A stretch of DNA of 64,000 bases from an uncultured SAR86 cluster bacterium (GTDB lineage Bacteria; Pseudomonadota; Gammaproteobacteria; Magnimaribacterales; D2472). A program made the translations under genes and the position numbers. This document shows, in pieces, positions 44,473 through 48,636 of this stretch. Position 1 is the stretch's first letter. Every line of letters begins with the position of its first letter. The stretch is taken from NCBI GenBank assembly GCA_902605165.1, contig CACLBJ010000001.1, positions 186,001-250,000 of the forward strand. The letters are read 5' to 3'. The notes beneath the pieces were generated by a model that was not told the DNA's origin, did no database searches, and worked only from the letters and a program-made list of their open reading frames with translations.

Positions 44473-45321
44473 TTAAAATGAGCCGCCTCTTAATTTAGTA
44501 TTTGGCGGCCCAAATGTCAGAGATAAAGCTTCTTTAACTGTTTTTGCTTTTCTAATATCTTTAAGAATTGCACTCCATCCCATAAAAGTAATCTTTACAG
44601 GGTTAAATGTATTAACATTATTAACTAATCCATATTTGACCGGTTCTTTTTCAGGCTCAAATGTTCCGAACATCTTGTCCCAAATAATAAAAAGGTTTCC
44701 ATAATTTTTATCTATATACTCTTTGTTGGCTCCGTGATGAACTCGATGATGAGATGGTGTATTAAAAATAATTTCTAGCGGGCCAAGCTTATCAACTATT
44801 TGAGTGTGTCCAACTACACCCCAAAGTGTGCTTACAACTCCTGCAATAACAACAATGGTTGGATCCATTCCAACTAATGGAAGCACTGCAAAAAAGGGAA
44901 GTTTTGATAATGGTGCAAACCAAGCCTGACGAAGCGATACCGCAAAATTCATCTCCTCACTTGAGTGATGGCTCATATGTATCGCCCAAAGAAATCTTAC
45001 CCTATGGGAAAGCCTATGATAGATATAAAAAACTAGGTCTATCAAGACAAAAGCTAATACCCACATAAGCCATAAAGGTATTATGCTTGCTAAATCAATA
45101 ACCCTAAATTGATAAAGAAAGATATGAACTGCAAAAGATAAGCCTTTTGCAGCAGATCCGATTAGTATGTTCCCAACAAGAAGCCCTGCTGTGCATAAAG
45201 TATCATCAAGTCTATAAAAAGATTTATTAGTAATTGATGAAAATATTGCTTCAAGAGCAATCATTCCATAGATTATGGGCAGCCCAATGGCATAAACTTC
45301 GGCAACTGTAAGGTTAGTCAT
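44473..45321 (-). CDS. Sterol desaturase / fatty acid hydroxylase family protein
   Basis: HRLSHRVRFLWAIHMSHHSSEEMN, PSHHRVHHGANKEYIDKNYGNLFIIWDKMFGTF histidine boxes. Confidence 0.93.
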   Translation of the reverse strand: MTNLTVAEVYAIGLPIIYGMIALEAIFSSITNKSFYRLDDTLCTAGLLVGNILIGSAAKGLSFAVHIFLYQFRVIDLASIIPLWLMWVLAFVLIDLVFYIYHRLSHRVRFLWAIHMSHHSSEEMNFAVSLRQAWFAPLSKLPFFAVLPLVGMDPTIVVIAGVVSTLWGVVGHTQIVDKLGPLEIIFNTPSHHRVHHGANKEYIDKNYGNLFIIWDKMFGTFEPEKEPVKYGLVNNVNTFNPVKITFMGWSAILKDIRKAKTVKEALSLTFGPPNTKLRGGSF

Positions 45322-45887
45322 TTAGATTTCAGTGACTCAATATTTTTGATAAGTGAGTCTAGCTCAGGTTTATTTGCTCTTATTTCGTCCATAGATAAGC
45401 CTTGAAGCTCATGAGGAAAAACGAGCCATTGATCTGTTTCATGTATGTAGTAATCAGGTATTCTGTCTGTTTTATTTTTGCTTGGTTTGAAGTATGGGGT
45501 TGCTATTCGTATTTCTGGTGTGTTCTTTTTACATGCAGACTCTAAATCACTTACAACCTTATTAACTGACATGCCGGTGTCATACACGTCATCAACAATT
45601 AAAAGGGAATCCTCTGACTTAAGTTTTCTTATCACATAATTAAGCCCAAAGACTTGGACTTCATCTTTCCTAGAGTCAATTCCTGAATAATATGAAGTCC
45701 TAATAGCGATATGGTCTGAAGGAATATCAAGAAAATCTAGAAATTCCTGAACTGCTATACCAACTGGAGCTCCGCCTCTCCAAACTCCAATAATATAATC
45801 TGGTTTAAAACCACTCTCAAAGATTTTCCAGGCTAAATTGTAAGAGTCCTTTAGAAGTTGGTCTGCCTGGATAAAATGCTTTTCCAT
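45318..45887 (-). CDS. Phosphoribosyltransferase (purine/xanthine-guanine type)
   Basis: IIGVWRGGAPVGIAVQEFL, SLLIVDDVYDTGMSVNKV PRPP motif. Confidence 0.87.
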   Translation of the reverse strand: MEKHFIQADQLLKDSYNLAWKIFESGFKPDYIIGVWRGGAPVGIAVQEFLDFLDIPSDHIAIRTSYYSGIDSRKDEVQVFGLNYVIRKLKSEDSLLIVDDVYDTGMSVNKVVSDLESACKKNTPEIRIATPYFKPSKNKTDRIPDYYIHETDQWLVFPHELQGLSMDEIRANKPELDSLIKNIESLKSK

Positions 45888-45946: not shown

Positions 45947-48265
45947 CTAGAAGCTATATCTTAACCTTGTCATAAATTGTCTTGGTGGTATCAGCTCAAG
46001 ACCTGTAGCGGCAACACCAAAAACATCTGTCATACTTGAATTAACGCCAGCTTCGTCAGTAACGTTTAGAAGCATAAAATCAACTTCTAGATCATCGCTA
46101 AAACCAATGCTGGTTGTAATATTTCCAATCTGATAGTCCCTAACATAATCTACAAGCGGATTATTGGAGACCCTTTGCTGGAAACTACCTCTTTTAACAA
46201 ACTGAACAAGAGTAGTTAAAGAATTCCCTGATGCTAAGTTGGTCTCATATTTTAGAGTTATGTCAGCTGTAAGTTCGGGAGTTTTAGCAAGCTGATTACC
46301 TTTTACATTTTCTCTAAGGCCATACCTAATATCTTCTTCGCCGAAGAAGTAAGGATAGGCGTCTACATTATCTAAAACCTCATAATCTGATGTTACTTCT
46401 GAGTCTAAAAATGCAAGATTCATATCAAGACTAAGTGAATCTGTTATAAATCCAGTAAATTCAATCTCAAGACCGGACATTTCTGAGTCAGGTATATTAG
46501 CCACACCACCTCTATATATATCCGGATCAGTAGCTTGAAATTGGAGATTTTCATATGAGTAAGAGAAAACAGCTATGTTTGCCCTAGCAGCACCATCTGC
46601 AAAAGTTGACTTAAGGCCCAACTCAACGGAGTCAACAGTCTCAGCTTCAAAAGTTGGAAACACCATTGGAGGAGCGTTATCATCATCAAATCCAAATGTT
46701 AAGTTACTACCGCCTGGCTTAAATCCTTTTGCTAAAGCGAAATAGCCCATAATATCTTCCGAGAAATCAACCTCAGCTACAACTCTTGATGTTATCTCAT
46801 CAGTAGTTCCCTCTTCTTGGAACGATTCAACATTTAAAAAGTTTGTTACATCTGTTGTGAATGTATCTTCGGAATAACGAAGTCCAGATATGATTCTGAA
46901 ATCATCACTAAGACTATATGTTGTTTGTGCATAAACTGAATAGGACTCTCTGCTTGGGTTTGCATCTGTAAAGAAATCAACCTCTGCAATTGGGCCAAAT
47001 ATATCGAACCTTCCTGGAATTCCATAGTCATGGTCATAGCAATAACTTGGATCAGCAAAGGACTCACCACATAAATATTTAATTCTTCCATCTAAATCAT
47101 CATCCCTATAGCCTCTGATTACATTTTCTATTTCATGATCCATATAGAAAGCACCAACTGTCCAATCGAGTTTCCCATTAAGAGCAGGTTCGTTTGAAAC
47201 TAAATTAATCTCAAAAGTTGAGGTATCAACTAAGGAAGTCTCAGGGGTAAATTCAGCTCTTTGATAAGTTGATCCTGCTGGAAGTCCTTCAATTGATAAA
47301 ACTGGATCAAGGTAATTATGTCTATCATTATCTCTAACAACTAGGACATCATCTTCCTGAACACTTGCTATTATTTTTAAGTTAGCGTATCCAAGATCAG
47401 ATTCATAAATTGCTGCAACAACCATTGATGATAGCTCATGTTTGGAAACAGTGTCCTGTGAAAGCTTCCTCATTCCAGAAGTTTGATCATCAATTCCTCT
47501 CATAGCTGCGCCATTTCTATCGACTTTGAAATATTGACCAAAGACTCTTAGGCTTGAAGTATCATTTAAATCAAACATCCAGTCTGTTCTAAAGCTTTTG
47601 TTATTGTCATCATCAAGATCCTGGCCTGTAACAACATTCTTGCTAAAGCCATCTCTCGTTGTTGAAGATATTGAGAATCTTGATGCTATTTTGTCAGATA
47701 CTACAAAATTGTTAGAAGTGCTAACTTTTTTCAAATTGTAATCACCAAAGGTTACGCTTAATTTTCCTTCTGCTCCCTCTGTTGTCGGTGCTCTACTAAT
47801 AACATTAACTGCTCCACCAGTGGAGTTTTGGCCAAAAAGTGTTCCTTGTGGCCCTCTCAATACTTCAATTCTCTCAACATCCAAGAAATCTGTACCGAGC
47901 GCAAATGGAGAGGCTATAAATACACCATCCATATGGTATGCAACCGATGGAGCTGCAATAGCATTCTGATTTGTCTCGTTACCCACTCCTCTTATTGAAA
48001 TAATAGTTTTGTAACCTTCATTTTTGGCTACAGTTACGCCTGGCACAATAGCACTAAGATCTACAAAGCTTGTTATATTCTTTTCTTCAATATCCGATTC
48101 AGTCAAAGCAGTCACTGCTTGTGAAATATCCTGAAGACTTTCAGAACGTTTTTCAGCTGTAACAACCACTTCCTCAACTTCCTGCGCCATCAGATTCAAT
48201 CCAAAAGCGCCTACAAAAGAAGCTAAAATTACTTTTTTAAATAAAAGATTTACATAATTTTTCAT
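45947..48265 (-). CDS. TonB-dependent outer-membrane receptor
   Basis: Signal peptide, EEVVVTAEKRSESLQDISQAVTAL TonB box/plug, C-terminal TRLRYSF. ATG at 48265 has SD ggggaa; the ORF extension to 48316 is probably untranslated. Confidence 0.93.
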   Translation of the reverse strand: MKNYVNLLFKKVILASFVGAFGLNLMAQEVEEVVVTAEKRSESLQDISQAVTALTESDIEEKNITSFVDLSAIVPGVTVAKNEGYKTIISIRGVGNETNQNAIAAPSVAYHMDGVFIASPFALGTDFLDVERIEVLRGPQGTLFGQNSTGGAVNVISRAPTTEGAEGKLSVTFGDYNLKKVSTSNNFVVSDKIASRFSISSTTRDGFSKNVVTGQDLDDDNNKSFRTDWMFDLNDTSSLRVFGQYFKVDRNGAAMRGIDDQTSGMRKLSQDTVSKHELSSMVVAAIYESDLGYANLKIIASVQEDDVLVVRDNDRHNYLDPVLSIEGLPAGSTYQRAEFTPETSLVDTSTFEINLVSNEPALNGKLDWTVGAFYMDHEIENVIRGYRDDDLDGRIKYLCGESFADPSYCYDHDYGIPGRFDIFGPIAEVDFFTDANPSRESYSVYAQTTYSLSDDFRIISGLRYSEDTFTTDVTNFLNVESFQEEGTTDEITSRVVAEVDFSEDIMGYFALAKGFKPGGSNLTFGFDDDNAPPMVFPTFEAETVDSVELGLKSTFADGAARANIAVFSYSYENLQFQATDPDIYRGGVANIPDSEMSGLEIEFTGFITDSLSLDMNLAFLDSEVTSDYEVLDNVDAYPYFFGEEDIRYGLRENVKGNQLAKTPELTADITLKYETNLASGNSLTTLVQFVKRGSFQQRVSNNPLVDYVRDYQIGNITTSIGFSDDLEVDFMLLNVTDEAGVNSSMTDVFGVAATGLELIPPRQFMTRLRYSF

Positions 48266-48321
48266 AAAATTTCCCCGTAAAGTTTTTTTCTTTTGTAATT
48301 TTTGTCTGCAGGACAATTGAA

Positions 48322-48342
48322 GTTAAACTCGGTCCGTTTAAC
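48322..48342 (-). promoter_or_regulatory. Perfect 7-bp hairpin in the receptor 5' leader
   Basis: gttaaac-tcggtcc-gtttaac on the + strand; 7-bp arms and 7-nt loop, 57-77 nt upstream of the receptor ATG. Confidence 0.55.
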
Positions 48343-48347
48343 AAGCG

Positions 48348-48451
48348 GCGTTCCTTCGGTTTTCACCTACTTCCGTCTCCTAAGAGATGAACGATTTTTG
48401 CGTTCCTTCAGCTTTCGCTTACTTCCGACTCCGAAGAGTTGAACGATTTTA
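48348..48451 (-). repeat. Two tandem 52-bp imperfect direct repeats in the receptor leader
   Basis: Units 48348-48399 and 48400-48451 align end to end without gaps with 44/52 identities. Each contains terminal cgttc...gaacg inverted repeats. Confidence 0.8.
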
Positions 48452-48636
48452 ACTCACATATTACTCAAAAATTGAGCTCCTTTTTAACCATGGAGATGGT
48501 GCAAATTAAATCACAATATAAAATAATACTTTCTTAAATTTGACTTAACAAGCTGCAAATCAATATTGAGCAACTTTTTTTGTTTTTTTTCCCTAAAAAT
48601 CAGATTTCTAACCTTAAACCTGTAAAATTTATCTAA

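Follow-up and report, generated by a model that had tools for sequence, protein, structure and literature searches.

What controls a TonB-dependent receptor gene whose leader carries two tandem repeats and a hairpin? The question was raised by the initial annotation of the window, i.e. the whole stretch of 64,000 nucleotides from an uncultured SAR86 bacterium analysed here. Two adjacent 52-nt units with complementary cgttc/gaacg ends, a 7-bp inverted repeat, the order unit, unit, hairpin, SD, ATG on the receptor strand and a leader of roughly 370 bp had been described, and all of these descriptions were borne out. TRF placed the units at 48348-48398 and 48400-48450 (period 52, 86% identity, score 157), the sole tandem repeat that it found across the window. 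The inverted repeat is exact (gttaaac 48322-48328, gtttaac 48336-48342) and the intergenic gap measures 371 bp (48266-48636). Counted by us, the distance from the end of the hairpin is about 43 nt to the SD sequence and 56 nt to the ATG at 48265. The repeats are conserved across species to a greater extent than the neighbouring intergenic DNA. The leader contains the following features in the direction of transcription.

48523..48551, minus strand: candidate sigma-70 promoter of the receptor, TTGTTA-17-TATTAT, hexamers conserved
48397..48447, minus strand: predicted glutamine-I riboswitch aptamer 1 (5′ copy), RF01739, 66.3 bits, model 1-53
48345..48395, minus strand: predicted glutamine-I riboswitch aptamer 2 (3′ copy), RF01739, 65.1 bits, model 1-53
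48322..48342, minus strand: putative expression-platform hairpin GUUAAAC-GGACCGA-GUUUAAC, common 3′ of aptamers before GlnII, TorF, TBDR and GlnA
48302..48316, minus strand: platform segment UUGUC-CUGCA-GACAA, with UCCUGCAGA conserved in most platforms and invariant in the TBDR leaders of the genus
48272..48278, minus strand: Shine-Dalgarno-like ACGGGGA, conserved in the genus

Comparison with Rfam, which the initial annotation had suggested as a check, identified the repeats. Both aptamers match RF01739 far above its gathering score of 35 bits, over the full model length, without a single non-standard pair and with E-values of ~1e-12 in 64 kb, which is far beyond chance. The helices P1, P2 and P3 are present together with the conserved CGGAAGUA and GAAGGAACG strands (RF01739 alignment, leader alignment), and the cgttc/gaacg unit ends correspond to helix P1. 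The glutamine-II riboswitch (Downstream-peptide, RF01704), which has a related core and ligand, was ruled out by a score of 14.9 bits as compared to its cut-off of 33. On these grounds of sequence and predicted structure, the 52-nt units are tandem glutamine-I riboswitch aptamers, which presumably bind glutamine. They resemble the known glutamine-I riboswitch (glnA RNA) in aptamer sequence and structure, in association with nitrogen genes and in tandem form, of which 157 doublets and 4 triplets are on record (PMC9481103), but differ in their host, which is a SAR86 bacterium and not a cyanobacterium, in the TonB-dependent receptor as target, in the GUUAAAC/GUUUAAC platform hairpin and in the predicted OFF polarity. 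The earlier suggestion of a structured RNA or copy-variable switch for the receptor was thus right as far as the letters tell, the riboswitch class having been missed; one, two or three aptamers per leader occur across loci and genomes. A tandem operator, the other reading offered for the repeats, found no support.

As a 9/12 match in a consensus scan, the candidate sigma-70 promoter is alone no better than approx. chance; both of its hexamers are kept in 7/7 leaders of the genus. In one of these leaders (L045), about 31 bp upstream of aptamer 1 (CATCTCCATGGTTAAAAAGGAGCTCAA..., window positions 48468-48498) are deleted, a segment that is strictly conserved elsewhere in the genus.

The hairpin beside the repeats is, to judge from its distribution, part of the expression platform of the aptamers. 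The platform, GUUAAAC..YCGAGUUUAAC followed by UUC and usually by UCCUGCAGA, is found in the GlnII, TorF and receptor leaders of the window's genus and in the GlnII/GlnA leaders of genus g22. Its core pattern matched 39 times in 203 SAR86 genomes, and 38 of these matches are located in genera g1 and g22 with an aptamer immediately 5′ of them; in these two genera, the reversed pattern used as a control was found once. Aptamers and platform therefore seem to have been copied between leaders as one cassette. In 17 distinct sequences, the stem shows no broken pair, all six pairs being kept; substitutions are one-sided, lead to G-U at three pairs and never occur as double changes, and therefore agree with an RNA helix but do not prove it. 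In the leaders with this platform, the start codon lies anywhere between ~73 and 150 nt downstream of the aptamer. Folding of 29 leaders with P1 either enforced or free revealed no consistent change in accessibility of SD or AUG, a comparison in which the automatic choice of the SD was wrong for some f4 TorF leaders, and translational control by simple SD sequestration is unsupported by it. As an intrinsic terminator was not found on the receptor strand either, the output step is without structural support. Other leaders look different: some TorF leaders of g22 have a hairpin followed by a U-run resembling an intrinsic terminator, and the small-protein leaders of other genera contain another platform, CAUCU...AGGAGAUG, that overlaps the SD.

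The genes surrounding the leader give an indication of what the receptor transports.

45947..48265, minus strand: TonB-dependent receptor, 772 aa, PF07715 and PF00593, orthologs 57-96% identical
45318..45887, minus strand: purine phosphoribosyltransferase (PRTase)-like gene downstream of the receptor, PF00156, weak xanthine/hypoxanthine PRTase models, PDB 1vdm with E=7e-16
44473..45321, minus strand: fatty-acid hydroxylase family gene after the PRTase gene, PF04116
48637..49926, plus strand: NCS2-type (xanthine/uracil-type) permease divergent from the receptor, PF00860

The receptor ORF was taken as 45947-48265 because the order on the minus strand puts the ATG at 48265; a longer TTG-started ORF was discarded as a mechanical extension. 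PDB 1vdm is a purine PRTase. The arrangement of receptor, PRTase and divergent permease is kept in the SAR86 orthologs with enough flanking sequence, down to 57% receptor identity, and in the more distant L054 and L055 a permease lies close by on the opposite side. Since the conserved locus holds a purine PRTase and an NCS2-type permease, gene neighbourhood alone suggests that the receptor probably imports purines. Solved structures and NCBIfam gave just generic siderophore/B12 receptor matches, all under the NCBIfam cut-offs, and were set aside as guides to the substrate. Among the orthologs seen, the fatty-acid hydroxylase gene is found at this place only in the window's genus. Named orthologs of the receptor are almost all from SAR86 records.

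Comparison of the receptor leaders (orthologs by tblastn) revealed two arrangements. All six orthologs of the same genus have both aptamers in a gap of 348-382 bp, and a sigma-54 promoter was found in none of the receptor leaders of this genus. In contrast, 14 of the 15 other SAR86 orthologs, all from other genera, have a gap of 179-265 bp in which the receptor strand carries a sigma-54 promoter that fits TGGCAY-N5-TTGCA exactly and is located 52-131 bp upstream of the start of the matched coding region; such a site occurred in 4 of 30,000 dinucleotide-shuffled leaders (1.3e-4 per shuffled leader). An ortholog of this sigma-54 type (L042) has an SD-like TTTTACGGGGA similar to the ACGGGGA of the window. 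In the more distant gammaproteobacterial orthologs L052, L054 and L055, TGGCACGATCC-NTGC-type sites were recognised by eye. Promoter and sigma factor go together: RpoN was matched in 14/14 promoter-bearing genomes, in one case as a fragment at a contig edge, whereas the six same-genus genomes gave no RpoN match. The fifteenth ortholog (L053) has neither promoter nor aptamer, even a weak aptamer being sought in its leader without success, and its RpoN is a 78-aa remnant. Hence, both elements of NtrC/sigma-54 control, a -24/-12 promoter and RpoN, are present with the orthologs of other genera and missing from the window's genus. Genome-wide counts of the sigma-54 consensus were left out as evidence because bare counts cannot tell promoters from chance or coding matches; the RpoN-less genus still has 0-4 matches per genome. 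Absence of the repeats from orthologous leaders had been named in advance as an argument against a regulatory element. Within the genus the aptamers are kept, and outside it they are indeed missing; this absence is informative rather than refuting because a sigma-54 promoter stands in their place. The riboswitch appears to have taken over the position of an ancestral sigma-54 promoter at the receptor.

The receptor is not the only target. The window's own genome (16 contigs, ~83% complete) contains seven aptamers in three leaders, and all of the genes concerned probably have nitrogen roles. Two aptamers are in the leader of a GlnII-type glutamine synthetase (GS), three in that of a gene pair for a TorF-family porin and, behind it, an ammonium transporter (torF-amt), and the remaining two in that of the receptor. 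The association of RF01739 with nitrogen-gene leaders is therefore seen directly at GS and torF-amt and, for the receptor, in the sigma-54 promoter of its orthologs. Aptamers occur in 10/10 genomes of the genus. Order-wide, 95 of the 203 genomes have one at E<=0.001, and in 81 the family cut-off is exceeded; GS, torF-amt and, by sequence, glutamate synthase are among the targets. When 369 genomes were drawn evenly from the class, only SAR86 and one other streamlined genome (G486) gave matches.

The torF locus mirrors the receptor. Genera g3 and g4 have a sigma-54 promoter in front of torF-glnK-amtB, and the short-chain dehydrogenase gene beside it is the one that also adjoins this locus in the window's genus; L160 differs in that another glnK-amt pair comes after torF. 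The window's own genome has three aptamers upstream of torF-amt, and glnK is gone. Another member of the genus, G007 (L161, G007:C3:71500-77500), has two aptamers followed by torF-glnK-amt and thus retains the PII gene in a genome without RpoN, which makes it a likely evolutionary intermediate of the swap. RpoN is found in 0/10 genomes of the window's genus as compared to 87/97 others of the family. In the genus, 9/10 genomes are without PII. Subtraction from the listing gives 21/21 without PII for g22, which belongs to another family, is the other genus with aptamers before GS and torF-amt and is also without RpoN. Together, PII is missing from 30/31 genomes of the two platform-sharing genera versus 8/172 other SAR86 genomes (Fisher p ~2e-27, a value that ignores phylogeny). 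Some SAR86 genomes are incomplete, which does not explain absences from whole genera.

Sigma-54 promoters are fired by NtrC, a protein activator, when nitrogen is scarce. The NtrC/sigma-54 regulon of the glnK-amtB type has the same targets in the relatives, i.e. the purine receptor and torF-glnK-amt, but combines a -24/-12 promoter with a protein activator, whereas the window's genus has an RNA sensor, has lost RpoN and has usually lost glnK. RNA-based glutamine sensing thus appears to have replaced PII/NtrC/sigma-54 control in this lineage, and so the genes should be switched off at high glutamine. We propose the broader scenario with moderate confidence: two SAR86 genera would have exchanged PII/NtrC/sigma-54 for an RNA-only regulon of OFF-type glutamine riboswitches, often tandem, which control GS and ammonium transport in both and purine uptake additionally in the window's genus, the cassette of aptamers and platform having spread between leaders by copying while the protein regulators were lost.

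For the receptor itself, the best explanation, and one that we hold to be quite probable including its OFF polarity, is that a tandem glutamine-I riboswitch tunes a probable purine-uptake receptor, possibly along with the PRTase, to intracellular glutamine as a signal of nitrogen status. Transcription would begin constitutively at the candidate sigma-70 promoter upstream of the aptamers. Binding of glutamine would stabilise P1 of each aptamer, upon which the platform would reduce expression at high glutamine, be it through transcription, translation or RNA decay. Such an OFF switch would mimic the old NtrC logic with uptake turned on when nitrogen is scarce, and two aptamers may sharpen the response. 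We infer the OFF polarity, opposite to that of the cyanobacterial switches, because sigma-54 promoters were replaced and because the targets GS, amt and receptor serve nitrogen scarcity. As the glutamine riboswitches of both tested types are ON switches (PMC6316151), an OFF switch would differ from them in its output.

This precedent is an argument for the same riboswitch acting in the ON direction, so that glutamine boosts a receptor needed for nitrogen-replete growth in a manner similar to cyanobacterial gifB and the Prochlorococcus DUF4278 genes. DUF4278 small proteins encoded under aptamers in some SAR86 lineages would also fit an ON switch. We nevertheless regard it as unlikely, given that the targets are nitrogen-scarcity genes, that two of the leaders replace sigma-54 promoters and that the receptor-type platform is unlike that of the small-protein leaders. 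Less probable still is that GTTAAAC...GTTTAAC serves as a DNA operator of a dimeric protein, the aptamers being incidental or vestigial. A perfect DNA inverted repeat with extra conservation in the spacer (YCGA) would suit a protein-binding site, but the near-exclusive position beside aptamers (38/39) on the transcribed strand speaks against it, every arm change seen preserves RNA pairing via G-U, and aptamers of full length with such high scores are not vestigial. That the units are a dispersed repetitive element or a functionless chance tandem duplication is hardly conceivable. Similar units do exist at three places in the genome, but each of them is a leader whose gene probably has a nitrogen role, the RF01739 consensus positions are retained and cross-species conservation exceeds that of the surrounding intergenic DNA.

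Associations of glutamine-I RNAs with GS, PII, GOGAT and amt have been reported before (PMC2864571). In 2018, a review considered glutamine riboswitches restricted to cyanobacteria, the links to GS, PII and ammonium transporters coming only from uncultured environmental sequences (PMC6316151), and a phage of the OM43 clade carries one as well (PMC9004378). Our literature search, with most subscription papers outside its scope, found no paper linking SAR86 to a glutamine riboswitch. As far as the searched literature shows, the SAR86 host, the TonB-dependent receptor as target, the common platform and the coinciding losses of sigma-54 promoters, RpoN and PII are new, and SAR86 is a plausible source of many orphan environmental glutamine riboswitches. 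A comparable case is the cobalamin riboswitch on btuB (PMC11162775), where the leader of a TonB-dependent receptor gene likewise contains a riboswitch for a metabolite. The ligand of that switch is the imported compound, whereas that of the SAR86 receptor would be a general nitrogen signal. If true, the swap would clearly exemplify how a global nitrogen regulator gives way to a chemically different one, with a likely intermediate (G007) preserved, and would predict how nitrogen is sensed in an abundant, mostly uncultured ocean group; it would also link an otherwise unassigned TonB-dependent receptor to a nitrogen strategy based on purine uptake.

Several observations concern other aptamers and genomes. 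G486, the non-SAR86 streamlined gammaproteobacterium, has single aptamers before genes that by eye appear to encode the large and small subunits of glutamate synthase (L156, L157). In g7, g8 and one g9 genome, one aptamer precedes a circularly permuted ATP-grasp protein (L059-L063, L066, L076, L077, L111; PF14403 in L059). Ten f2 genomes (G108, G110-G113, G124-G126, G128, G129) match the sigma-54 DNA-binding domain only in ORFs of 78-91 aa, which are either RpoN remnants or a stand-alone C-terminal domain. The N-terminal GlnII sequence of L013 (G009:C6), from the window's genus, resembles the longer GlnII of family f4 (g22), which suggests transfer of a GS-riboswitch cassette between the two lineages. 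At L073, L075 and L108 (g4, g6), aptamers precede DUF4278 (YRG-repeat) small proteins of 54-56 aa, one of them above the Pfam cut-off; in cyanobacteria this family is linked to glutamine riboswitches and to the GS inactivating factor IF17. Unannotated basic small proteins of ~45-55 aa, several with a PYYL end, follow the aptamers of L064, L067, L071, L074, L123-L127 and L136, whose leaders contain an SD-overlapping hairpin. It is possible that these basic proteins are analogues of GS-inactivating factors.
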